A stretch of DNA of 64,000 nucleotides, taken from contig NZ_MCIF01000002.1 in NCBI RefSeq assembly GCF_003268475.1, forward strand, positions 5,741,644-5,805,643, in the 5' to 3' direction. A model generated the notes under the pieces. It had not been told where the DNA came from and did not search any database. It worked only from the letters and a program-made list of their open reading frames with translations. Positions 50,002-63,325 of this stretch are shown here, piece by piece. The stretch is from Thermogemmatispora tikiterensis (lineage in GTDB: Bacteria; Chloroflexota; Ktedonobacteria; Ktedonobacterales; Ktedonobacteraceae). The position numbers and the translations under genes were made by a program. Positions within the stretch are counted from its first letter, which is position 1. Each line of letters starts with the position of its first letter.

Positions 50002-50898
50002 TTAAGCGGTGGTGGGCTTCTGTCCCCAGACGGTGATCAAGGTCGAGATGGCGCAGAAGTCCTCGGCCTGCATTTCGGCGACGGCTTGCTGATAGAGTGG
50101 CTCCAGCTCCTCGCGACTGATGACACCGGTCTTGAGAAGGAAGGGTTTGATCACTTCGAAGAGGATAAACATATCCTTGAAGGAGGGATAGTGTAGGGGG
50201 CTGTCGCTGGACCAGTCGGCGGCGCTGGCCCGCAGGCGCACGTCGGTGAAGCCGGCCCGGCGCAGCAGGCGGGGCAGGACGGGGGTGATGCCGACGTGGC
50301 GCCCGTCGGGCGAGAAGCTCTGACCAGCCTGCTTGAGGGCAGCGGCGATGAGGGAGAAGTAGCGTTCAGTGGCTGGGCTGGTGGTCAGGCCGAATTCGGT
50401 TTCGGTGAGGCGGATCACGCCGCCGGGCTTGAGGAGACGGAGGCATTCGGCCAGCAGGCGTGGCCAGGCCTCGGGGAGCATGAAGCTGAAAAGCGACCGC
50501 CCATTGATGAGGTCGAAGGTGGCATCTGGAAAGGCGAGGGGTTGCATGATATTCATAATCTGGAACTGCACGTTGGTGAGGCCGCGAGAACGGGCGTAGG
50601 TGTTGGCGTACTCGACGATGCTGGGGTTGATATCGATGCCGACGACTTCGACAGAGGGGTAGTGGAAGGCGACCTCGGTGGCCCAGCCGCCGGGGCCGCA
50701 GGCCAGGTCGAGAATGCACCCACCCTCGGGCAGGGTCTGGCCTTCAGGGAAGAGGCCGCCCATCGCTTCCGTGATCAGGCGATCCTGTTGGATGAGGCGG
50801 GCCAGCTCATCGGCTTGCTCGGCGTCAATAGGGTAGGTAGAGTCAGTCGCCGCTGGTTGGGCTTCTGGAACAGGCCGGTTTGCCTGCGGCTCGCTCAT
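50002..50898 (-). CDS. Class I SAM-dependent methyltransferase, paralogue 2
   Basis: 298-aa methyltransferase. Motif I ILDLACGPGGWATE, GIDINPSIVEYANTYARSRGL, QPLAFPDATFDLINGRSLFSFM and LKPGGVIRLTETEFGLTTSPATERYF. The leader TYPIDAEQADELARLIQQDRLITEAMGGLFPE is shared with the paralogues. Follows paralogue 3 by 99 bases on the same strand; AGAGGACC is before ATG 50898. Substrate unknown. Confidence 0.9.
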   Translation of the reverse strand: MSEPQANRPVPEAQPAATDSTYPIDAEQADELARLIQQDRLITEAMGGLFPEGQTLPEGGCILDLACGPGGWATEVAFHYPSVEVVGIDINPSIVEYANTYARSRGLTNVQFQIMNIMQPLAFPDATFDLINGRSLFSFMLPEAWPRLLAECLRLLKPGGVIRLTETEFGLTTSPATERYFSLIAAALKQAGQSFSPDGRHVGITPVLPRLLRRAGFTDVRLRASAADWSSDSPLHYPSFKDMFILFEVIKPFLLKTGVISREELEPLYQQAVAEMQAEDFCAISTLITVWGQKPTTA

Positions 50899-50997
50899 GG
50901 TCCTCTGCGTTCCTTTCTTTTCTTGTAGTTTGGCTCGACTGACAAATGATGGGTGACTCGATAATAGCTTGCGCCAGCTGCTTTTAGCTCTTTCCCT

Positions 50998-51882
50998 TCA
51001 TGGCTGACGCCCCCAGGCTGTCAGCCAGAACCACACGGCAAAGAAGTCAGGGGCCTGCATTTCGGCGACGGCTTGCTGATAGAGCGGCTCCACTTCCTCT
51101 GCGCTGGCAACCCCTGTCCTTACAAGGAAAGGTTTCAGTAGATCGAACATGACGAATATATTTTTGAAGGTGCTGTAGTGCTGGGGGGTACCGCTGGACC
51201 ACTCCAGCGCGCCACCGCGCAGGCGGACGTCCTCAAAGCCGGCCTGGCGCAGCAGCGGGGCGAGCATAGGTGTAATGCCCAGATGGTGCCCATCGGGCGA
51301 GAAGCTTTGACCTGCGCGCTTGAGAGCCTCTGAGCAGAGCGCGTAGTAGCGTTGAGTGGCTGGGCTGGTGGTCAGGCCCCATTCGCTTTCGGTGAGGCGG
51401 ATCACGCCGCCGGGCTTGAGCAGGCGGCGGCACTCGGTCAGCAGGCGTGGCCAATCCTGGGGCCGCATGAAGCCCGCCAGGAAGCGAGCGTTGATCAGAT
51501 CGAAAGAGGCGTCGGCGAAAGCGAGGGGCTGCGTGATGTTCATTGCGGCGAACTGGACGTTGCTGAGGCCGCGCGAACGAGCCTGAGCATTGGCGTAGTC
51601 GACGATGCTGGGGCTGAGATCGACGCCGATGACCTCGGCTTTGGGATAGCGAAAGGCCATTTCGAGGGCCCAGCCGCCGGGGCCGCAGGCCAGATCGAGC
51701 ACCTGGGCTGCGCTTGGCAGTGCCTCCAGCTCGGGCAGCAAGCCGCCCATTGCCTCCGTCACCAGGCGGTCTTGTTGCATGAGGCGCGCCAACTCAGCGG
51801 CCTCTTCGGCATCGATAAAATAGGTGCGCTCCCCAGCGGGCTGACTATCGCCGCCTGGCGCTTCGGCTTCAGCTGCAGTCAT
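50998..51882 (-). CDS. Class I SAM-dependent methyltransferase, paralogue 3
   Basis: 294-aa methyltransferase, closest to paralogue 2: VLDLACGPGGWALE, GVDLSPSIVDYANAQARSRGL, QPLAFADASFDLINARFL, LKPGGVIRLTESEWGLTTSPATQRYY. ATG 51882 is preferred over TTG 51891, which would be only 3 bases from AAGGAG. The tandem of paralogues 3 and 2 suggests local duplication, with the third copy 19 kb away. Confidence 0.9.
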   Translation of the reverse strand: MTAAEAEAPGGDSQPAGERTYFIDAEEAAELARLMQQDRLVTEAMGGLLPELEALPSAAQVLDLACGPGGWALEMAFRYPKAEVIGVDLSPSIVDYANAQARSRGLSNVQFAAMNITQPLAFADASFDLINARFLAGFMRPQDWPRLLTECRRLLKPGGVIRLTESEWGLTTSPATQRYYALCSEALKRAGQSFSPDGHHLGITPMLAPLLRQAGFEDVRLRGGALEWSSGTPQHYSTFKNIFVMFDLLKPFLVRTGVASAEEVEPLYQQAVAEMQAPDFFAVWFWLTAWGRQP

Positions 51883-52069
51883 AGCTTGCAAGATCTCCTT
51901 TGCTCAGCTTCTGATCCCTGGATGGGTCAAAGTGTGGGCGGCCTGCTTGCCCGCAGAGCCTGCTCAAATCTGCCCGAGCCTGCGGGAGAAGATGCTGCCC
52001 ATCTTGCCCTTTTCTTTAGAAAGCATACCAGCCTATATCACAATTCGCAAGGTTGTTTCTTTCTTCCGC

Positions 52070-55000
52070 TTAGGACGCTTCGCCTTCGCCGCTCTTGGCC
52101 AGGAGCATGTTGATGATATTGAGTTCGTGGGACATAAAGAGGTAATGGTCGAGGAAGATCTTGCGCCGCGCCTCGGGCAGGTTGTAACTGCGAAAGAGCA
52201 GGAACGGAAAGTGTTCGTAGTGGCGGCCCAGCGGCAGAACGCTGTCGATGGGATAGAGCGTGCGCAGATAGCTTTCGAGGAGGCGGCGAAAACTCCAGTA
52301 GGAGCCGAAGGCGTCCTCAGCGCCGCTCTGAAAGTAGCTCTGAAAGACCTTGCTGACCAGCAGGACATGCAGGGGAATGGCGTAGTGCTGGTCGGCGTGC
52401 TGTGTCTCCTGCCCGAAATGAGGAATGACCATGTTCCCACGGGCGATACGGCCCAGCTCTCTGATGAGCGCGATGCCATCCTTGAGGAGCAGACGGATCT
52501 CATCGTTGCAGTACGGGTGGCGCCGGAGCGTCTCCATCCGGCTGAGCAGCAGCTGCCCGCGCCGGTTGACCTGCAAGAGCTTCATCAGGCTGATCCAGTA
52601 TTCTTCCCTCAGATGCCGCTCGCCCAGTGGCACAATGAGCAGGCTGCCGGCGATGTAGGCCCGCTCCAGGGGAGGGAGGGTCAGCAGGTGGTCAAAGCCG
52701 TGGATGGCGGCCTCCTCAAACCTGTCGGCCAGTTGATCCAGCTCAATCAAATAGGGACGAGGATGACGCTGGTCCCCGTCCTGCCGGGCCTGTCCCCTCG
52801 GACTGCCATGAGCCCGTCGGCCCGACTCCGACGCCGGCGGATTCAGCTCTAGACGGGCCTCGCTGAGGAGGCTGATCAGATCCTCGGCGACCTCACGGAA
52901 GTCCGGGGTCTCCGGGTGCTGATCGCGCAGATCATCGAGCTGCTCGACCAGGCGCCCCAGACGCGAGGTCAGGCTCTCGCCAGCGGAGAGCACGGCCTTA
53001 CCGCCAATGGGGATCATCAGATAGCGCCCGTGACCGATCTGCCCCTCGCCCTTGATGCGCGTGAGCAGAGCGGTCTTAAGGATGAGCAGGATGTTGAGCA
53101 AGGCGAGCAGGCTCTCGCGCAGGGCTGAGTCGCGCTCTTCGGCCCGGCTGTAAAAGAAGCGGTCGGAGAGGTAGAAGGTGATGGCTTTCTCTGTATTGTC
53201 GAGGTCGCCGCCGCGCCCACGGTAGATAACCTGCAGGATCTCCATCAGGTTCTGCTCGATGGCGAAGCGTGGCACGTCAACCAGGATCGCGCGGGCGCGC
53301 TTGAAGGAGAGGCCACGGCTGGCCGAGGCGGTCATGAAGACAACGCGCACCTTGTCCTGATAGTCTCTTACCTTCTTCTTCTCCTCCTCGGAAATGTTGG
53401 CATGGATGGCCAGGTAGTCCTCGTAGAGCTGGAATTGCCCCAGGCTCCGCCGTAGCTCGGCGATCAGTTCGGCCAGGCGCTGCTTGTCCTGAATGTAAAC
53501 CAGCACCTGTGGAGCTTCGGGCTGTCGAAGGACGGTCAGCAGGTCTGTCAGCAGCTCCTGCTGAAGGCCGCTTTTGAGCTGCTGGCTGATGGCGCGCAGC
53601 GCGGTTATGTCTTCGTAGCTCTCGATCTCCAGGCCAACGTGATAGCGCAGGCGCAGGGCGCTGGCTGGATAGGCGTTCGCGTTGATCCCAACCGCGTTCA
53701 GACGCTTGAAGCCGAAGGCGCTGCGGCTCAGGGGCTGCGGCGGCTGGCTAGCGCGCCGGAAGTAGATCTTATCTGGTTCGTAGGAGCTGTCTTCAAGGTG
53801 GCGCTGAATGAGTTGCGGGTCGACGATCGAGGCGTCGGCCACAATGACTTTGCAGCGAATGGCCGGGTGGTTGAAGAGCTGGCACTGATGGAGCAGTCTG
53901 TGAACGCCCTCGACGAAGGCGGCGCCGCTCTCGTCGCCGGTGACCTCGTCGATCATGAAGAAGATGTATTTGATGCGTCGGCTGAGCTGTTCCAGGGCTT
54001 CCTGTTGTACCAGTCCCTGACTGAGCAGGCTCTGGAACAGGCTCTTGAGGTGTCGCAGGGTGGTGGCCTGGTCGTGACTGGTGCGCCTGAGCGATTGCAC
54101 AGCGACGGTGGCGACGATGGTGTTGGAGAGCTGTTCTGTCAGGGCGGCGTCAATCGCCGAGCAGAGGCTGTCGAGGACGCCGCTGACGTTCTGGCCGCGG
54201 TCGATGAGCAGCCCCTCCTCGACTTCCTCTAGCCGGCGCTCGCGGGGACGTTGCTGCTGGGCGTCGGGGCCTTCGGCGGGCAGAAAGTCGATGCCGTGCA
54301 GTGAGAAGCGGTCGTTGCGCTGGGACGAGTAGTAGTGGACGGTGCGCTTGCCGCCGTTGGCCCGGATCTGGGCGGAGTTGGTTGTGAGAGCCAGCAGGGT
54401 ATCGCAGCGCAGGTCGAATTCTGAGCTGCGGAACTTGTCGATGATGTCCAGGTTGACCTGCTTGCGGGGGCTGACGTAGACGAACAGGAAGCCCTCGCCC
54501 TGCATCGCGCGCTCTTTGAGAAAGTTGACGATGGCGGTGGTTTTGCCGATGCCGGGCGTACCGGTCAGAAAGAGGTAGGGGGTAGGTTGCTCCAGTTCGC
54601 GGAGCACAAGCTCGGCGTGCAGCTCGCGCAGTTTGCGCCCGGCACATGGCTGGTCGGGGAAAAGGGCCTGCAGCTCGGGCGTGACCTGTTCGGGGGTCAG
54701 CGGGCTGTCCATGCCGACGAAGTCGGTCAGCAGCTCCTCGTGAGAGACCCAGTGCAGGCCGTCGCCCCGCTCTGCCTCTTCCCGGAGCTGTTTGACGAAC
54801 GATTTGCCCTGCTGAAAGCAGCGCGCCACGTAGCGGCTGATGGTCTCAAGGAGCTGCTCGCGGCTGGCCTCGATCTCCTGCCCGGGAATCAGGTGCTCCT
54901 CGCGCTCACGGTAGATCTCGGCGCAGGCTTCGAGAACGGGGAGCTGATCGCGGCGCAGGGTCATGCTATTGCTGCCACGGTCGGTGTAGCCAATGATGTG

Positions 55001-55927
55001 AAAGACAATGGAGTCCTGGGGGGTGAGGATGCCGTGGCGCGTGAGAAACTGGTAGAAGCTGCAGGCATAGCTACCTGCCTGGATGAGTTTGTAGCTCTCT
55101 TTGTCCTGGCGGCTGAAGGCGCGGAAGTAGCGTTTGAGGCCGGTGGCCAGTAGCTCCTGTCCGCTGAGCAGGGCGGCGTCGGTGTCGATGCTCAGGTTGG
55201 AGAAAACGCTGCGAGTGCGCATGTAGCGCAGCTCGCGCAGCAGCAGGCCGCGGATCTGGTCGACTGAGGTGAGACTGGCGGCGTCGCTGAGGCTGCGGAC
55301 GCTGAAGACCGAAAGGTCGATGCAGAGGAGACGCCAGTCCTTTCCCTGCTGCAGCAAGAGCAACAGGTCGGCCTGGGGAAATTGGCCGCGTCCGCAGTAT
55401 TGCTCGTAGATCTGCTCGCTGGCTGGCAGTGAGTAGTCGCGCTGACGCAGTTGCTCCAGTAACTCGGCGAAGGCCAGGCTTTCTTTTTTGGTGTAGGTCT
55501 CCAGACTGTTGGGACCGTGAAAGCGACATTGCAGGTAGACGATGTCAATCTGCCCGTTGTGGGCGGCCATGAGGGCCTCCAGCAGTTCCTGAAGGAAGGT
55601 ACGCCCGCCCAGGTAGCCGCGTAGCAAGATGAAGATGGCCCAGTGGCGCAGCAGGTCGCGGTCCCAGCTGCTGAAGACGCAGTTGCGCCTGCTGAGCTTG
55701 CTGTAGAGCGGCTCAAAGTGGAGCTGGGCCAGCTCGCGCCGATAGTAATCGGAGATGGAGGGGGGGCAGTGGATGCGCGGCTCCTGGCCAAGGGCCGTGA
55801 GCAGGCCGGTGGCGAAGCCGATTTCAAAGAGACGGCCCATGTCTTCGCCGAAATGCTGGTTGCTGCTGGCTGGCTCTGGCTGCCTGGTCTGGACGCTTTG
55901 GCCAGATGGCTCTGGCATGGCTGACAT
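52070..55927 (-). CDS. Very large SF2-type helicase/ATPase of a two-gene operon
   Basis: 1285-aa protein. Walker A is LTGTPGIGKTTA (456-463), Walker B FFMIDEVTG (Asp660-Glu661) after an unusually long 200-residue insert, then HANISEEEKKKV (about 842), motif V TASASRGLSFKRARAILV (866-883) and motif VI QVIYRGRG (899-906). Residues 1-430 are a separate region; ADLLLLL...WRLLCIDLS (186-206) resembles a nuclease-type core but lacks a clear E-x-K. Residues 930-1285 are helical and unrecognised, with a Gly/Arg-rich linker near 1020-1045. It is the second gene, 42 bases after the 1121-aa protein gene. Family not known to me. Confidence 0.8.
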   Translation of the reverse strand: MSAMPEPSGQSVQTRQPEPASSNQHFGEDMGRLFEIGFATGLLTALGQEPRIHCPPSISDYYRRELAQLHFEPLYSKLSRRNCVFSSWDRDLLRHWAIFILLRGYLGGRTFLQELLEALMAAHNGQIDIVYLQCRFHGPNSLETYTKKESLAFAELLEQLRQRDYSLPASEQIYEQYCGRGQFPQADLLLLLQQGKDWRLLCIDLSVFSVRSLSDAASLTSVDQIRGLLLRELRYMRTRSVFSNLSIDTDAALLSGQELLATGLKRYFRAFSRQDKESYKLIQAGSYACSFYQFLTRHGILTPQDSIVFHIIGYTDRGSNSMTLRRDQLPVLEACAEIYREREEHLIPGQEIEASREQLLETISRYVARCFQQGKSFVKQLREEAERGDGLHWVSHEELLTDFVGMDSPLTPEQVTPELQALFPDQPCAGRKLRELHAELVLRELEQPTPYLFLTGTPGIGKTTAIVNFLKERAMQGEGFLFVYVSPRKQVNLDIIDKFRSSEFDLRCDTLLALTTNSAQIRANGGKRTVHYYSSQRNDRFSLHGIDFLPAEGPDAQQQRPRERRLEEVEEGLLIDRGQNVSGVLDSLCSAIDAALTEQLSNTIVATVAVQSLRRTSHDQATTLRHLKSLFQSLLSQGLVQQEALEQLSRRIKYIFFMIDEVTGDESGAAFVEGVHRLLHQCQLFNHPAIRCKVIVADASIVDPQLIQRHLEDSSYEPDKIYFRRASQPPQPLSRSAFGFKRLNAVGINANAYPASALRLRYHVGLEIESYEDITALRAISQQLKSGLQQELLTDLLTVLRQPEAPQVLVYIQDKQRLAELIAELRRSLGQFQLYEDYLAIHANISEEEKKKVRDYQDKVRVVFMTASASRGLSFKRARAILVDVPRFAIEQNLMEILQVIYRGRGGDLDNTEKAITFYLSDRFFYSRAEERDSALRESLLALLNILLILKTALLTRIKGEGQIGHGRYLMIPIGGKAVLSAGESLTSRLGRLVEQLDDLRDQHPETPDFREVAEDLISLLSEARLELNPPASESGRRAHGSPRGQARQDGDQRHPRPYLIELDQLADRFEEAAIHGFDHLLTLPPLERAYIAGSLLIVPLGERHLREEYWISLMKLLQVNRRGQLLLSRMETLRRHPYCNDEIRLLLKDGIALIRELGRIARGNMVIPHFGQETQHADQHYAIPLHVLLVSKVFQSYFQSGAEDAFGSYWSFRRLLESYLRTLYPIDSVLPLGRHYEHFPFLLFRSYNLPEARRKIFLDHYLFMSHELNIINMLLAKSGEGEAS

Positions 55928-55969
55928 GGCGCTGGTGATCCTCCTTGTTCCTCTTCCGTCGTATCCAGC

Positions 55970-58900
55970 TCAGGACGCGGTGGATGACGGCGGCTCCGGG
56001 TGCTGATGGTTGCCGCCGCCTTGCTTCAGCTCCAGGGTGCGCAGCACTGAGCGCACGTGTGTCAGGCAGGCCAGCATGTTGAAACGCTGTTGGCCTTTCA
56101 TGTGAGGAATGATGGCCTGGGCACCGGTGCTGCGGTCCCCGATGGTGCGCTTGTAGGGATCAAGCTTCATCATGGGGCTGGACGGTCTTTCAAAGCGCAT
56201 GAAGTGCAGCAGGGTGATGGCCTCGATCAGGCCGTGCTTGATGGTGCCTGGCTGGTCAGGGGCCAGCAGGTCGGACCAGATGTACTGCTCGTAGCTGGGG
56301 TCCTGGTCGTAGACATGGGTGACGGTGGAGTAGGCCATGATGCCGTTGTAGACGCGCTCCTGCGCCTCGGGGGAACCAGAAGGGATATAGTAGCCATTGT
56401 AGAGATTGAGAAACATGACGGTACGTTTGCTGGGATCGTTGACGACGTCGGCCAGTTCGCGCAGCTCGTCAATGTAGAGTGACTCTTGATCGTGCCTGGC
56501 AGAGCTGGCCTTGAGATCGAGGACGTAGTAGAGGTCGCAGAAGATGGGGTAGACGCGGAAGTCGCTGGCAACCTCGCGCATGGCCTGGATGACGTCCTGG
56601 CTCATGAAAAACAGCTCGCGGGCGCCGCCTTTGGTGAGGCCCAGGGTGCGGCTGTAGGGAGCGTGGGCGACGTAGAGCAGGTGACGATAGCCCTGCTGGG
56701 CGCAGTAGCGGGCCTGTTCGATGATGATGTCGGGCCGCGTGTGCATGCTTTCGGAGGGGTGATTGTCGGCGAAGGTTCTCAGGCGACGCAGCAGGAGTTC
56801 GTTGCCCTGCCGCTCCAGGCCAAGCACTTCGCCGTAGATGACGGCCAGGTAGTGATCGCGGGCCTGGGTAGTGTAGTCGCATTTGCGGCTGGAGACGACC
56901 AGGATGGCCACTTTGTCAAGGCGCGCGGGCTGGGACTGGTCGGCGTCGGTGGCGGCGGCGGGCGCCGGCTGGAGGGCCGCGCTCCGATGGGCGGACGTGA
57001 CCCGTGCTGGCTGACGGGCTGCTTGACGGGCTGCCGCGCGCCCGCTGTTGGTCTGCTCCGACTGCGGCTTGAAGCGATGCGGCAGGTTCGAGTAGAGCGA
57101 GCAGAGGGCGCTTCTAAGCAGGTAGACGTTTTTGCCTTCCTCTTTCAGGGTCTCCAGGTGCATGCCTTGCGAGCTGGTCGGGTAGTCGGCTCCTAGCAGG
57201 TGCTCCAACACCTTGGTGATGCCGTGCAGGACGCTTTCATCGTCGTAGTGCTCCTGGCCGGCCTCTTCTTTCTTGATGTGGATGCAGATGAGCGGAATGA
57301 AGCGCCTGGCTGGCTCAATAGCGGTGGCGCTGTCGACGACCAGTTTGATGAAGAGGTAGGCGAGAAGGAGGTAGGTGAAGCGGTAGACAAAGGCGGCCTC
57401 GGAACGGACGGCTAGCCCCTGGTGGTGGTAGCCGTAGCCCAGGGCGATGTGTTTGAAGCCACCAAAGCACTGCTGGAAGAGCTTTTTGCACTCTGCTTGT
57501 TTCTGCTTATCCGCCTCTATGGGAAGCAGGATAACGGGCAGGGCCTGCAGGTGCCCAAGCTCGTAGCTCATGGCATAGCTGCCGATAGTCTCCTCGCTGC
57601 CATGCTCCTTACTGAGGAAGTAGAGCGGCTCAATCTGAAGGCTAACGGCGAGTTTGCAGAGGACATTGCTGCTGATGCTGGCCTCCTCGATGCTGATGTA
57701 CTTGAGCAGCTCGCGCCGGTGGTCTTCCTGGAATGAGAGGTCGTCGCTGAAAAAGTGGTGCTGGATGAAAAGTTGTTCGGGATCTTTCGAGAGGATGCCG
57801 GCGCTCAGGGAGATCACCAGGTCGGCCCGGTAGGGGCGCGACTGGTGGGCTGGCTTTTTGAGCGAGGCGACCAGGGCGGTCCGTACATCCTGGAGAAGCT
57901 CCGAGGTCTTTTTCGAGGTCTTCTGTGCGCCTGTGGACTGCTCCGGCTCCAGCTCCTCGGCCAGCCGCCGCAGGGCGGCCTCCTTCTCCTCTTGGGTGCC
58001 GGCTCGCAGGACGGGCAATAGCTCTTGCTCAAAGTCGGCCTCGGGCTGATAGCTGGGGTCTTCCCAGTGCTTGAAGGCGAAGAAGTAGAGCACGGCTACG
58101 CGGACGATGCGCGTGTAGAAGGCTTCAAGGGTGCCGTTGCTTTCAGCCTCCTGCCGGCGCTCGTCAAAGGAAGGTTTGTCCGGTTGGAGCAGGGCCAGAT
58201 GGAATTTAAAGGATTCCTCGCCCTTGCCCCCGTGGACGTGCACTTTGCCGTTGAGCTTGAGGCGCAGGCCGTGGATGAAGCGCTTGACCCCTTGCTGCTC
58301 GTTGATGATCTCTCCGAGCTGACCAGCGACCTCGCCGAAGATGGGCAGGGGATCGAAGGCGTCGGCCCGTGAGAAGAGGTCGCGCAAGTTGAGGCGCTCC
58401 GACTGGCCATAGGAGACGATGTAGTGGCTATCGGGATAGCGCTGGATGTAGGCTTCAAGCTGGCGCAGGCGCTCGCTCAGGGTCTGGAGCAGGCGCTCGG
58501 CCCGGCGTTCCTGATCGCTGGCCCTGGAATCGCTGATGAGGCTTTGCCTGATGTAGGTCAGGTAGTGGAGGCGGGCGGTGCGCTGGATGCGGGCCAGGCC
58601 CTCATCGGTGATGGTCCCGCAGAGGATGTTGATCCGCTCGGCAGCCTGGCTTGTTGGTTGCTCAAGCTGGGTCTCCGCCTCTTTCAGCTCTTCTGCATCG
58701 GCCTGCCCGGTCTCCTGGTAGGTCTTCAGGTGGGCTTTGATGCCCTCGATCAGCTCCTTTCTCAGTTCGCCGATCCCCTGAACGTCGATGGTGAGTTTAT
58801 GGCCCTTCAGCCGCGTCTGGTCGGTGGTGCCTGGCTGCCTCTGAAAGTGCAGTTGACGCCGCCGGACGATGGCGGACTTCGAGAGAGGATAGCACAGATA

Positions 58901-59335
58901 ATTGCCTTTCTGCTTGCTCTGGGCGGCAAAAGCCTGGAGCGGCTGAAAGAAGCTGCTGACGAGCTGCTCGGGAGTCTGACCGCGCAGGCGGCAGACTTCG
59001 CTCAAGGCCTGCTGCAACGGGTGCAGGATGTGTTGCTCCAGGTCCCTGCTGAACTGGCTGCGCCCTTTGTCGTCGGCAAAGTGGACACTGGCGTAGCGCG
59101 TGCCGTGGACGTTCTCAACAGGGTTGGCCAGCCTGTGAGCCTCTCTGGCTACGGCCAGGGCGATTTCGTCAAGATTGAGGCTGAGCCGCTGCTCTTCGAC
59201 CCGTAGAATAGTGCCCACCAGTCGGTTTTCTTGCTGCAAGCGCTTCAATTGCTGGCCAATGGCTTCAAAGAGGGGGCCGTAATTGACGGCGGCCAGATGA
59301 TGCTCGCGTTGATGCAGTGTGCTCATGGATGTCAT
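55970..59335 (-). CDS. 1121-aa protein of unknown family, helicase partner
   Basis: Large cytosolic protein with no signal or TM helix strong enough to call. Residues 1-760 are mostly helical with a charged middle (440-500); 502-605 includes ADLVISLSAGILS and YELGHLQALPVILLPIE. An Ala/Arg/Gln-rich linker (755-805) precedes a distinct C-terminal domain (806-1110) that starts VAILVVSSRKCDYTTQARDHY and contains RHLLYVAHAP, RVYPIFCDLYYVLDL and RTVMFLNLYNGYYIPSG. I recognise no catalytic family. ATG 59335 or 59326 are possible starts. Operon with the helicase suggests a joint nucleic-acid or defence function. Confidence 0.75.
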   Translation of the reverse strand: MTSMSTLHQREHHLAAVNYGPLFEAIGQQLKRLQQENRLVGTILRVEEQRLSLNLDEIALAVAREAHRLANPVENVHGTRYASVHFADDKGRSQFSRDLEQHILHPLQQALSEVCRLRGQTPEQLVSSFFQPLQAFAAQSKQKGNYLCYPLSKSAIVRRRQLHFQRQPGTTDQTRLKGHKLTIDVQGIGELRKELIEGIKAHLKTYQETGQADAEELKEAETQLEQPTSQAAERINILCGTITDEGLARIQRTARLHYLTYIRQSLISDSRASDQERRAERLLQTLSERLRQLEAYIQRYPDSHYIVSYGQSERLNLRDLFSRADAFDPLPIFGEVAGQLGEIINEQQGVKRFIHGLRLKLNGKVHVHGGKGEESFKFHLALLQPDKPSFDERRQEAESNGTLEAFYTRIVRVAVLYFFAFKHWEDPSYQPEADFEQELLPVLRAGTQEEKEAALRRLAEELEPEQSTGAQKTSKKTSELLQDVRTALVASLKKPAHQSRPYRADLVISLSAGILSKDPEQLFIQHHFFSDDLSFQEDHRRELLKYISIEEASISSNVLCKLAVSLQIEPLYFLSKEHGSEETIGSYAMSYELGHLQALPVILLPIEADKQKQAECKKLFQQCFGGFKHIALGYGYHHQGLAVRSEAAFVYRFTYLLLAYLFIKLVVDSATAIEPARRFIPLICIHIKKEEAGQEHYDDESVLHGITKVLEHLLGADYPTSSQGMHLETLKEEGKNVYLLRSALCSLYSNLPHRFKPQSEQTNSGRAAARQAARQPARVTSAHRSAALQPAPAAATDADQSQPARLDKVAILVVSSRKCDYTTQARDHYLAVIYGEVLGLERQGNELLLRRLRTFADNHPSESMHTRPDIIIEQARYCAQQGYRHLLYVAHAPYSRTLGLTKGGARELFFMSQDVIQAMREVASDFRVYPIFCDLYYVLDLKASSARHDQESLYIDELRELADVVNDPSKRTVMFLNLYNGYYIPSGSPEAQERVYNGIMAYSTVTHVYDQDPSYEQYIWSDLLAPDQPGTIKHGLIEAITLLHFMRFERPSSPMMKLDPYKRTIGDRSTGAQAIIPHMKGQQRFNMLACLTHVRSVLRTLELKQGGGNHQHPEPPSSTAS

Positions 59336-59754: not shown

Positions 59755-60048
59755 CTAGCGGCCCGGCTTGGGGTGGTCCCGATCCCCAGCCTTGAGGATC
59801 TGCAGCTCAGAGGGGCATTGCTCCCAGGGAATGCGCTGCAGAAGTTCGGCGCGGCTGGCGATGCCCAGGCGCTCGCGCAGGCGGTAGATGTGGCCGCGTA
59901 CGGTGCTGGGAGTGATGCCCAGGCGCTCGGCAATGGCTTCGTCCTCCAGTCCCTGACGAAGGAGGAGCAGGACCTCCCATTCGCGCGGGCGCGGTGGACC
60001 GGGTTCCCGGGGTCCAAGTTTGCGGTGGAAGCCACGACGCTGACTCAT
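59755..60048 (-). CDS. LuxR-type HTH protein, split response-regulator output
   Basis: 97-aa protein whose residues 20-80 form a LuxR/GerE HTH: REWEVLLLLRQGLEDEAIAERLGITPSTVRGHIYRLRERLGIASRAELL. It has no receiver domain; ATG 60048 overlaps the stop of the receiver gene by ATGA. The pair thus forms a response regulator split into two chains. It may activate the helicase operon just downstream on the same strand. Confidence 0.85.
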   Translation of the reverse strand: MSQRRGFHRKLGPREPGPPRPREWEVLLLLRQGLEDEAIAERLGITPSTVRGHIYRLRERLGIASRAELLQRIPWEQCPSELQILKAGDRDHPKPGR

Positions 60049-60593
60049 AGGCGGCTTGCCCCTTTCTGGTCCTGCTGAAAGCTGGCTGCTCCTGATGGGG
60101 GAATGGTGGGCAGAAGGGTTTCGCCACCGATGAAGAAAGACCCGGGCAGGATGGCCAGCGGAACGGGTGGAGAGAATGGGGGAGTCACTGGGGTGGCTGG
60201 GGGTGGCGTCGGGTTGGGGCTGGCTCTGGTGAGGCGACGAACGAGGGCGACAAGCTGGTCGATGAAAAAGGGCTTGCCTACGAAGGCGCTGGCTCCGACC
60301 AGCCGCGCCCGCAGGCGCTCACGCCAGCCCTGTTGCGCGCTCATGAGCACGATGGGTATGGCGCTGAGCCGCGGCTGCTGGCGCAATAGCCGGATCAGCT
60401 CGTAGCCGTCCAGGCGCGCTACCCCGGGGTCGACTAGCAGCAGGGCCGGTGGCTCCGGGCTGCGTGCCAGCTCTTGAAGTGCACTCAGGCCGTCGCGATG
60501 GCAGCAGACGCCGAAGCCGGCGCGTTGCAGGGCCAGGGCTACGATGAGGCGACAGATCGCTGAGTCGTCGACAATGTGCACAGTTCCTGGCAT
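60045..60593 (-). CDS. Response regulator receiver protein
   Basis: 182-aa protein. Residues 4-120 are a CheY-like receiver with Asp9/Asp10 (VDDS), phosphoacceptor Asp55 (LLVDPG), Ser85 (LMSAQ) and Lys107 (VGKPF), all intact. A Pro-rich tail of 60 residues follows and ends at the HTH gene. ATG 60593 has GGAG 8 bases upstream. No histidine kinase is nearby, so the partner is encoded elsewhere. Confidence 0.88.
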   Translation of the reverse strand: MPGTVHIVDDSAICRLIVALALQRAGFGVCCHRDGLSALQELARSPEPPALLLVDPGVARLDGYELIRLLRQQPRLSAIPIVLMSAQQGWRERLRARLVGASAFVGKPFFIDQLVALVRRLTRASPNPTPPPATPVTPPFSPPVPLAILPGSFFIGGETLLPTIPPSGAASFQQDQKGASRL

Positions 60594-60716
60594 AGCAATG
60601 GCTCCTTTCAGATGATGGGTTGCCTGTCGGTCTCTGTTGGGTCTACATGCCGTGCGTTTCCCTATCCCCTCGCCTGGCAGCTCGTCCCGCTGCAAAGCTG
60701 CCCTCTATGCTATGGA

Positions 60717-61168: not shown

Positions 61169-63325
61169 ATGGCCGGAAAAGAGCAGCTTGTCGAGACGGG
61201 CGATCCTCTGGTGCGGGTGTGGATGCTGGGGCCGTTTGTGGTAGAGCTGCGGCAGGCCGATGGGTCGTGGCAGGCGCTGCCGGGCGGGATCTGGCGAACG
61301 TATTTCTATGGGCGCCCGCTGCTGCAGCGCCTGCTGTGTGCTCACGGGCGCCGGCTGGAGCGGCAGCAGTTGCAGATGGATCTGTGGCCGAGGGAGGAGC
61401 CGAGCGAGGCGATGGAGCGCTATCCGCTGACGGCGGCGGGCCAGGTGCGGAAGCTGTTGGGAAAGAGGGAGTTGCTCAAGACGTGCGGGCAGGGCTATCA
61501 GTTGGCCGATCAGCGCTGGATCTGGGCCGATGTGGATGAGGCGCTGTGGTGGCTGGGGGAGGCGCGCCGGCGGGGACTGGAGACGCTGGCGGCGCTGCCG
61601 GCGCTGCAGGGAGCGGAGCGGCTCTTTCGGCGGGGGCGCCTGCTGGAAGAGCAGGCGGCGGTGTGGGCGGTGGCGTATCGGGAGTGGGTGGCGGGCGAGC
61701 GGTGGAAGGCGGGGCTGGCCCTGGCGCGGCTCTACGAGCGAGAGGGGATGCTGAGCGAGGCGGGGGAGCAGTATCGGCAGTTGTATGAGGAGCATCCGTA
61801 CAGGGAGGAGGCGCTGTTAGAGGTGTATGGGTGGTGGCTGCGACAGGGGGAGCGAGAGCGGGCGGAGCGGGTGCTGACGGCTGGCCTCCAGCGGCTGGAA
61901 CAGGAGGGGTTGCCGCTGTCAGAAGAGGCGCAGGAGTGGGTGAGGCGGCTCAGGCGGATGCAAGAGAGAGACAGGCTTGCCCGGGTGCAGGGGAAGACTG
62001 TGGTATACTGGGAAGGAAGCAAGGGAGCGTTGAGGGAGGAGAGAGGAGGAAGCGCGCTTCTGCAGGCGCTGCCCGCGCCGGGGATGAGGTTGTTGCCGGC
62101 GGGGTCGGAGGAGGAAGAGGAGAGGGAGGAGGAGGCGAAGCAGGGGGACTGTGGGACGAGCGTGTTGCTCTGGCCGCTGACGTGGGGAAGGCGGGGGCAA
62201 GGGAGCCTGCGCGAGATGGAGCAATTGATTCAACAGGAGCTTTGTATGAGCGAGCGCACGAGAGAACCGGCAGAGGGAAGGACTGCGATGGAGCAGCGAC
62301 TACCGCGGCGGACGGCGCTGCTGGTGCTGGCGGGCTTGCCGCAGGTGCTGTTTGGACTGGGGAGCGTGGGAGCGGGTTGGGAGTGGGCAGGTGGCGGCAG
62401 GAGAGGGGAGGGAAGGCTGAGAGAGGAGGTGCTGCCGGTGGTGGCAGGGAGCATCACGGCCTGCTGGCACCTGCTCAACGAGGGAGAATTTGAGACGGTG
62501 GAGCGGACGGTCAGCAGCTACTTGCCGCTGTTGTGTCAGTGGGCTAAAGAACCATCAGCAGGTCAAACCGCTGCCGCTGCTCTTGCTGCTCAAGGATACT
62601 TTTTTCTGCGCCAAAGTGCCTATCACCGCCTCCAGTTCCGGCAAGAGCTGGCCTACAGTCAGGCGGCAGTAGCACTAAGTCGTTTGGCAGGTGAGCCAGC
62701 GTTATTGGTCAAAGCGCTCACTAAGATCAGCTTGGACTACTATCACCTATCGGACTATAGACAAGCATTCCTGGCTCTGGAAGAAGCTCGCGCTTTACTG
62801 CCGCAAACTCCGCGGATTCTGGAAGAGACAGTCTATACAGGGCTGGCGCTGATTTCTGCTAAGCAGGGGAGGGCCAGAGAAGCGCTGGATAATCTGAGCC
62901 GGGCCAGGGAGGGAGATGCCTCTGTTCAAGGTGAGCTGCCTGTGTACTTGCAAGCGGACGAAGGGCCGTGGAGGCTGATCTTGCGAGAAGGGTGGGTTCG
63001 TCTAGAGCTGAACCGGCATGAGGGGAAGAGAGAGCATGCGTTAGCGGCGGAGCGGGCGCTAGCGCAGATAGAGAGCCTGGCAGGCCGGGGGATGGTGCCG
63101 GAGCGGATTCGCCTGGAGATTCTGAACCGGAGGGGGGAGGCGGCGATCGGAAGGGGAGAGCTGGAGGAGTATGTGAGCTACACGGTGCAGGGGGCGGAAG
63201 GAGCCAGGAGATTGGGGAGTAGTAAGAGGAGGCAGGAGCTGGTGAGCAATTGGAGGAGGGCGTTGGAGCGCTGGCCGGGGGAGAAGCGGGTGAGGGAGCT
63301 GGGGGAGCTGGTGCTGTGGACGTAG
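61169..63325 (+). CDS. BTAD/SARP-type regulator with C-terminal TPR-like region
   Basis: 718-aa protein. Residues 10-105 resemble the winged OmpR-like DNA-binding part of SARP regulators (VWMLGPFVVELRQADGSW..., ...LLQRLLCAHGRRLERQQLQMDLWP), and 115-260 the helical BTAD (ADVDEALWW..., ...EEHPYREEALLEVYGWWLRQGE). After a low-complexity acidic stretch (310-365), a new start-like segment, MEQRLPRRTALLVLAGLPQVLFGLG (from 374), begins a TPR-like region to the end. That half is paralogous to the next gene, so this may be a fusion of two proteins or use an internal start at 62288. GAGAGGAC precedes ATG 61169. Confidence 0.8.
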   Translation: MAGKEQLVETGDPLVRVWMLGPFVVELRQADGSWQALPGGIWRTYFYGRPLLQRLLCAHGRRLERQQLQMDLWPREEPSEAMERYPLTAAGQVRKLLGKRELLKTCGQGYQLADQRWIWADVDEALWWLGEARRRGLETLAALPALQGAERLFRRGRLLEEQAAVWAVAYREWVAGERWKAGLALARLYEREGMLSEAGEQYRQLYEEHPYREEALLEVYGWWLRQGERERAERVLTAGLQRLEQEGLPLSEEAQEWVRRLRRMQERDRLARVQGKTVVYWEGSKGALREERGGSALLQALPAPGMRLLPAGSEEEEEREEEAKQGDCGTSVLLWPLTWGRRGQGSLREMEQLIQQELCMSERTREPAEGRTAMEQRLPRRTALLVLAGLPQVLFGLGSVGAGWEWAGGGRRGEGRLREEVLPVVAGSITACWHLLNEGEFETVERTVSSYLPLLCQWAKEPSAGQTAAAALAAQGYFFLRQSAYHRLQFRQELAYSQAAVALSRLAGEPALLVKALTKISLDYYHLSDYRQAFLALEEARALLPQTPRILEETVYTGLALISAKQGRAREALDNLSRAREGDASVQGELPVYLQADEGPWRLILREGWVRLELNRHEGKREHALAAERALAQIESLAGRGMVPERIRLEILNRRGEAAIGRGELEEYVSYTVQGAEGARRLGSSKRRQELVSNWRRALERWPGEKRVRELGELVLWT
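62331..62479 (+). repeat. Near-identical direct repeat, copy A
   Basis: About 150 bases nearly identical to 63435-63583 (offset 1104 bases), with weaker similarity on both sides to about 62513. Only a handful of differences are visible, far fewer than in the flanks. Codes for the GLPQVLFGLGSVGAG...ITACWHLLNEGE part of both proteins. Confidence 0.85.

Follow-up and report, generated by a model that had tools for sequence, protein, structure and literature searches.

In a 64,000-nucleotide stretch of the Thermogemmatispora tikiterensis genome (contig NZ_MCIF01000002.1, positions 5,741,644 to 5,805,643; hereafter the window) we find a mobile pair of genes, A and B, whose products are a 1121-residue protein that appears to have an Argonaute/PIWI-like fold and a 1285-residue superfamily 2 (SF2) helicase with a predicted nuclease-like domain. 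The pair is probably a mobile two-gene defence against foreign DNA of the kind represented by DdmDE, ApsAB and pPIWI-RE. On a further claim we lean slightly to the side of doubt, namely that A-B is a third independent family of guide-dependent immunity by Argonaute and helicase-nuclease, with a giant dead PIWI protein, a rearranged PD-(D/E)XS...K nuclease and dissemination on plasmids among Chloroflexota, Cyanobacteriota and Pseudomonadota. The preliminary description of this locus had proposed a new defence or genome-maintenance system; it missed the PIWI-like and nuclease-like domains, and its proposal survives in that the two genes stay together in relatives and the libraries searched link neither protein to a characterised housekeeping system, the defence role itself being what we infer.

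The two genes lie side by side on the minus strand, co-directional and 42 bases apart, as had been described, and A, the Argonaute-like gene, is transcribed before B. They are genuine genes, since 100 mononucleotide shuffles of the 7266-base stretch yielded a longest open frame of 359 codons against the 1121 and 1285 residues of the real frames, GC content at third codon positions is 0.80 and 0.82, and GGAGG lies upstream of both start codons. The metagenome-assembled genome HOG59 carries the pair at 99-100% identity, with A cut by the contig end. Altogether we located B at 52 distinct places (29 from 28 of 50 cyanobacterial genomes, three more from the genomes of loci L068, L073 and L130, 13 in Chloroflexota and seven on plasmid records), several genes among them being cut by contig ends. 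At 49 of the 52, A adjoins B upstream on the same strand (Chloroflexota 13/13, cyanobacterial genomes 30/32, plasmids 6/7), which bears out the conserved pairing that the preliminary description had looked to, and 11 of the pairs overlap by 4 bases when drawn from the first start codon. The exceptions are locus L124, where an insertion of about 7 kb with a Type IIG enzyme separates A from B, L132, where B stands alone, and L168, where a truncated B lies beside a transposase. Pairwise distances for A and B across 37 loci are correlated with a Spearman coefficient of 0.92, a value reached by none of 999 permutations. We conclude that A and B form an evolutionary unit.

This unit is patchily distributed over three phyla, Chloroflexota, Cyanobacteriota and Pseudomonadota. 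Within the class of the window genome A matches 15 of 47 genomes (one marginally, E 7.7e-4 over 97 residues, and one as remnants only) and B matches 13 of 47; in a phylum sample of 201 genomes B occurs in six, all kin of the window genome (from its own to the same order; 24 kin among the genomes listed). A pattern scan of an 84,980-species collection returned 15 A loci, in Chloroflexota and three cyanobacteria (29-34% identity), and is evidently insensitive, because a profile search recovers B in 50 of 386 cyanobacteria, some of these copies being fragments or holding many stops (for example, in genome G277). A divergent cyanobacterial subfamily has an A merely 16-18% identical to that of the window. 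Plasmid records add Pseudomonadota, with pairs from Acinetobacter (two), Cupriavidus and Acetobacter, in each of which A lies directly upstream of B and is found by the A5 profile at E 3.6e-30 to 1.7e-130.

The pair is also mobile, because it is missing from its site in a congener and occurs as near-identical copies on conjugative plasmids of different genera. In the congener (G040) neither A nor B was found anywhere in the genome; at the corresponding site the flanking genes are kept, homology breaks off at window position 52070, where gene B ends, and sets in again at 59804, leaving about 190 bases in place of the 7.7 kb of the window, and a tblastn search of that site gave chance matches only (best E 0.40). 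Copies that share 97-99% identity with the Fischerella one reside on five plasmids (from Microchaete, Tolypothrix, Aulosira and two Trichormus strains), and these five, together with a Nostoc plasmid bearing a divergent pair, are all typed as conjugative. Integrase and transposase genes lie near the pair on plasmid C of Trichormus variabilis ATCC 29413.

These observations bear on two other explanations of the pair. The first is that A-B serves the plasmid or integrative element that carries it, by excluding competitor plasmids or by maintaining the element, and does not serve the host. The conjugative type of all six cyanobacterial plasmids and the integrase and transposase genes near the pair on plasmid C would fit this explanation; the window copy, however, lies in a contig of 5.96 Mb, and contigs of 4 to 11 Mb hold several others, sizes which imply that chromosomal copies are common, and the mechanism would overlap with that of a mobile defence, so that we consider a purely element-serving function quite improbable. 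The second explanation is genome maintenance or recombination, in which the helicase and an RNase H-fold partner would process host R-loops or stalled forks with neither guide nor invader. It can draw on the resemblance of the SF2 core to repair and RNA helicases (UvrB, MrfA, RecQ-like proteins and Brr2), on the frequency of housekeeping families among the scanned neighbours and on the synteny of the locus in most Thermogemmatispora genomes examined, but the unit is absent from a congener and carried on conjugative plasmids, and was not found in 34 of the 47 class genomes or in 336 of the 386 cyanobacteria, several of them incomplete drafts. We therefore judge a maintenance role unlikely and favour mobile defence.

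The assignment of protein A to the Argonaute/PIWI fold comes from its predicted structure. An AlphaFold2 model built on an alignment of 15 sequences (mean predicted local distance difference test score, pLDDT, 70.7) matched 20 chains of the PDB in Foldseek at E <= 0.001 with a probability of 0.99-1.00 (best E 1.2e-5), namely 16 of Thermus Argonaute, one of Marinitoga Argonaute, two of the SPARDA complex (ranks 8 and 20) and one of Med13 (7kpv_D, E 1.8e-4). The next seven chains (ranks 21-27) comprise Thermus Argonaute, Archaeoglobus Piwi and five budding-yeast Argonaute chains, followed by small ribosomal chains, so that the best 27 matches comprise 26 Argonaute-type chains and Med13. The model has a Rossmann-like block at about residues 597-757 (pLDDT 77-94 over 591-730 except for 62 at 691-700, lower after 730), followed by strands 808-818, 831-843 and 846-854, helix 869-880, strand 885-891, helix 913-920 and strand 927-941, an order that fits a MID domain and then an RNase H-like PIWI domain. 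Thus residues 806-1110, correctly singled out as a separate domain in the preliminary description, look like a PIWI-like RNase H-fold domain. In a 39-sequence alignment the MID residues Q723 and G724 are each conserved in 38 sequences (both together in 37), and position 704 is Tyr in 14. By contrast, the columns expected to form strand beta-1 (808-817) hold one Asp and one Glu among the 39 sequences, and those of beta-4 (886-894) one Asp, which suggests that the RNase H-like core has lost its catalytic aspartates and that A is catalytically dead.

Sequence models add little to this assignment. The window A has no Pfam or NCBIfam match at E <= 1 (the NCBIfam scan covering the window pair) and one chance-level model in PADLOC. 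The Argonaute model PF02171 matches neither the window A nor its 15 family members nor three further partners of B, and the pPIWI_RE models of Pfam find nothing at E <= 1 in the window A and the 15 members or at E <= 0.5 in the three further partners; PF13032 does detect six of 194 cyanobacteria. Profiles of A and B searched against solved structures returned no relative beyond P-loop noise and designed proteins, and scanning 15 relatives of A and 14 of B against the libraries added nothing decisive.

Protein B is an SF2 helicase. The window protein matches Pfam Helicase_C (E 6.3e-5) and, weakly, P-loop models, and the Walker A (GTPGIGKT, 456-463), Walker B (DEVT, 660-663) and VI (QVIYRGRG, 899-906) motifs, all noted in the preliminary description, are real and nearly invariant. 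The Fischerella homologue, modelled over residues 1-1200 of its 1223 (pLDDT 73.1), matched the SF2 proteins Brr2, UvrB and HrpA, as well as MrfA and RecQ-type proteins, in Foldseek. At the N-terminus of the same model a helix, strand 100-106, helices, strands 153-159 and 162-171, helices including 241-262, and strand 272-280 follow one another in an order that agrees with the alpha-beta-beta-beta-alpha-beta core of restriction endonucleases. This region holds a motif (D187, (D/E)204-x-S206, K276, K280, Q283 and Y287) that is invariant in the 48 complete rows, that is, 47 distinct genes, of a 49-row alignment in which L071 and L131 are the same gene and the 49th row is a contig-end fragment. 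The D...(D/E)xK site of the PD-(D/E)XK family is absent, and all 48 complete rows have (D/E)xS instead. We take the Q-x3-Y of the motif to be the element that follows the active site in RecB-type nucleases. Since Ser occupies the site of the canonical Lys in every complete row, a conserved Lys of the following helix (K276 or K280) could replace it, or else the domain could bind without cutting; the strict conservation of the motif favours a function for the domain. The conserved motif lies N-terminal to the core, no separate model or search having been made of the C-terminal 300 residues.

Several points weigh against this interpretation of the two proteins. The PIWI assignment comes from one predicted model, in which blocks of the PIWI domain have pLDDT values of 31-86; a single protein, Thermus Argonaute, accounts for 17 of the best 27 chains; and the template-modelling (TM) scores of these 27 matches are low, 0.14-0.20 by query and 0.21-0.34 by target, with root-mean-square deviations of 9-23, so the fold match is local and the overall superposition poor. 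Profile-profile comparison of A with prokaryotic Argonautes (pAgos) or pPIWI-RE finds no relation and a helicase decoy scores equally, but because the control comparison of pPIWI-RE with pAgos likewise yields nothing, the result speaks neither for nor against a relationship. Position 708, which corresponds, with motif names following the ApsB and pPIWI-RE papers, to the site where guide-binding MID domains carry Lys, is Lys in just 18 of the 39 sequences and Gln in 10. Asp 820 (34/39) lies just past strand 1 and, on topology alone, was not taken as catalytic; with an Asp so near this strand, A is best called presumably inactive. In B, the nuclease-like domain, which was assigned from motif and secondary structure, has Ser in place of the family Lys and may be inactive. 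Finally, many neighbours of the pair, including those in the window, are not defence genes.

Comparison with described systems places A-B among the Argonaute-helicase-nuclease systems. DdmDE likewise consists of two genes, for a catalytically inactive Argonaute-like protein and an SF2 helicase-nuclease, the former finding the target by a guide and the latter destroying it (PMC12409362), and ApsAB, which also occurs in cyanobacteria, joins an SF2 helicase with PD-(D/E)XK nuclease to an Argonaute-like partner, with genetic support for the mechanism (PMC11096173). A-B follows the same plan, a presumably inactive Argonaute-like protein with an SF2 helicase bearing a nuclease domain, the latter as judged from motif and secondary structure. 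The arrangement differs, however: in DdmD the helicase is N-terminal and the PD-(D/E)XK domain C-terminal, and ApsA has helicase motifs at 218-1147 and its nuclease at 1420-1435, whereas in B the nuclease-like motif (187-287) precedes the helicase core and has Ser for Lys (PMC12409362; PMC11096173). Of the ApsB MID motif, Y-x3-K-xn-QG-xn-K, A shares a part, with QG in 37 of 39 sequences and the exact Y, K, Q and G in one of 39 (PMC11096173). In the PDB the B profile (E <= 1) met no chain named DdmD and the A profile (E <= 10) none named DdmE, the presence of such entries being unchecked.

pPIWI-RE systems encode a PIWI module, a helicase and a restriction-endonuclease fold together and were proposed to restrict invading DNA; they differ from A-B in having three genes, in the order restriction endonuclease, DinG helicase and pPIWI-RE, where A-B has two with the PIWI-like gene first, and in the cysteine-rich iron site of their DinG-type helicase (PMC3702460). 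B has no cysteine cluster (within 464-659 a single position, 589, has Cys in at least 25 of 49 rows, the count there being 32), on which ground a DinG/XPD identity was rejected, and A lacks a pPIWI_RE match. A further mark of pPIWI-RE proteins is an absolutely conserved Arg and Glu in the extension of the PIWI sheet, for which A gave no dependable residue-by-residue alignment with that family. With long prokaryotic Argonautes (PF02171) A shares the MID-PIWI fold, in predicted structure only; it differs in having no PF02171 match and no recognisable catalytic residues, and in its length, about 1000-1200 residues across loci against 700-778 codons in 12 cyanobacterial pAgo frames. Med13 (MedPIWI), the structural match 7kpv_D, is likewise a PIWI protein that has diverged, and its binding channel is altered (PMC12477606), yet it is a eukaryotic transcription regulator with no helicase partner. 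Because the pPIWI-RE and PF02171 tests fail and the nuclease-like domain stands at the other end of the helicase than in DdmD and ApsA, we call A-B its own new variant of the Argonaute-helicase-nuclease type. A distant common origin with ApsAB or DdmDE is possible, as A-B was set apart from them by their descriptions and not by direct alignment. Among the papers listed by searches of the open-licence PMC literature, one of them by protein accession, we found none that describes the pair, the family tree of ApsA relatives (PMC11096173) being unchecked.

By analogy with these systems, we suggest that A, presumably catalytically dead, holds a short nucleic-acid guide, probably in its MID pocket, and that the guided protein would find matching invader DNA, be it a plasmid, a conjugative element or a phage. 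A might then associate with B and load or activate it at the target, and B would unwind the target and either cut the DNA itself or pass it to other nucleases. A different outcome would be abortive defence as in short-pAgo systems, with A sensing invader nucleic acid and B destroying DNA or RNA indiscriminately until the cell dies. Two of the structural matches of A are SPARDA-complex chains (the subunit is not shown in the match) and A, like short pAgos, seems catalytically dead; A is nevertheless a long protein whose N-terminal region is large, it is paired with a helicase and not with an APAZ effector, and coupling to a helicase suggests processive action on the target, so we hold abortive defence, too, to be unlikely. 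Should guided defence by A-B be confirmed, a further bacterial Argonaute family would be seen to escape the sequence models tried (Pfam, NCBIfam and PADLOC), the pairing of a dead Argonaute with a helicase-nuclease would seem to have more than one origin, and an unusual nuclease motif would be added that calls for explanation. Compact at two genes and present in cultured cyanobacterial hosts such as T. variabilis ATCC 29413 with its plasmid C, the system would make guide use and helicase recruitment directly testable.

The surroundings of the pair vary from copy to copy. In the window they comprise, by eye, a sugar-transport operon, an oxidoreductase, tandem methyltransferases and regulators, and are not a defence island. 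Elsewhere some copies have clear defence genes as neighbours: the restriction and specificity subunits of a Type I system at L047, HmaB and HmaC at L048, and at L124 an RT_UG35 (DRT) reverse transcriptase together with a Type IIG enzyme, from a scan of 10 chosen proteins of which three had no match and one a TPR match only. In Acinetobacter an HNH endonuclease, a methyltransferase and a WYL regulator lie by the pair. Among the Pfam matches listed (the first 25 of 109) for 133 flanking open reading frames (ORFs) of 18 places are Uma2 (four), PIN (three) and GmrSD (two), besides housekeeping families. PADLOC models numbered 144 in these 133 ORFs (18 of the 52 places) against 54 in 140 ORFs of 18 random regions of the same contigs, counts that do not amount to a test because the models are redundant (62 match one Type I specificity subunit), those listed are the first 25, and the ORFs were picked mechanically.

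Two regulator-like ORFs upstream of A (59755-60048 and 60045-60695, minus strand, overlapping by 4 bases), one helix-turn-helix (HTH; LuxR-like by eye) and one response-regulator-like, had been linked to the system in the preliminary description. They do not seem to belong to the A-B unit, because none of the regions fetched from other genera showed a homologue next to a complete pair and the congener without the pair retains the HTH ORF, along with DNA similar to the regulator stretch. In G027, of another genus, response-regulator-like and methyltransferase-like ORFs similar to the neighbours of the window pair lie near A remnants (L056).

Features of the A-B locus in window coordinates
Feature	Coordinates	Strand	Basis
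Gene A, 1121-residue Argonaute/PIWI-like protein (predicted), first gene of the operon	55970..59335	-	ORF calls, fold search, homologues
A residues 1-596, N-terminal helices and beta-hairpins in the position of the Argonaute N, PAZ and linker domains	57548..59335	-	secondary structure of model
A residues ~597-757, MID-like domain, Q723-G724 conserved	57065..57547	-	alternating strand/helix order, pLDDT, column counts
A residues 761-803, disordered linker	56927..57055	-	pLDDT <50; mostly gaps in other sequences
A residues 806-1110, putative PIWI (RNase H-like) domain with no recognisable catalytic aspartates	56006..56920	-	strand/helix order, Foldseek, columns
Intergenic 42 bases with GGAGG before the helicase start	55928..55969	-	
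Gene B, 1285-residue SF2 helicase bearing additional domains, second in the operon	52070..55927	-	ORF calls, Pfam Helicase_C, Foldseek
B residues ~27-430, N-terminal region with putative restriction-endonuclease-like domain	54638..55849	-	model of Fischerella homologue, alignment
B residues 187-287, invariant motif D187...(D/E)204-x-S206...K276...K280-x2-Q283-x3-Y287	55067..55369	-	alignment
B residues 450-985, SF2 core: Walker A 456-463, Walker B 660-663, ADAS 697-700 (motif III-like), motif VI 899-906	52973..54580	-	
B residues 986-1285, C-terminal region, poorly conserved insert ~1040-1105	52073..52972	-	alignment, homologue model

A number of weak matches were rejected. The PADLOC model MADS8 hits B at E 1.4e-5 over 449-663 and 13 of its 14 relatives (up to 5.2e-6), and is not a family match because the similarity is confined to the surroundings of the P-loop. 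For A, PRTase_III-A (E 0.024, one of 15 members), ten weak Pfam matches among the 15 members (best 0.0062), and Syn-F4-Link (E 0.0023) with two weaker PDB sequence matches of the profile were attributed to chance. A phage or viral origin was likewise rejected, as B matched no phage record and the A alignment no viral contig (A was not searched against phage records); the A model found nothing at E <= 0.001 in a viral structure library, with RuvC- and RNase H-like folds among the noise. The DNA of the Acinetobacter helicase gave no match in E. coli, a search whose sensitivity was that for distant relatives.

Single genes of the pair were also seen. In the cyanobacterium G357, B (L132:8143-11796) has no adjoining A, and a pPIWI_RE gene lies on another contig. 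A occurs a second time in Thermosporothrix hazakensis (L053:7296-10574, L069), with no B in the fetched region, and the region fetched around the A remnants of G027 likewise shows no B. Directly downstream of the pair in the window lie two tandem methyltransferase-like genes (50002-51891, by eye); the relative at L044 has five similar ORFs in tandem, and further similar stretches are spread across the G039 and G040 genomes. Window positions 61169-63325 encode a 718-residue protein with the look of a BTAD-type transcriptional regulator (by eye), after which similar ORFs of 355 and 831 residues follow. The insertion at L124 (11456-18924) holds, besides its Type IIG restriction-modification gene, PIN-like, HicB-like and DUF559-like ORFs (by eye), with RT_UG35 on the other side, and in Acinetobacter sp. 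PK01 (L164:11706-16862) a gene with a DUF4011 domain and a toxin-antitoxin pair of the HigB type come after A-B.

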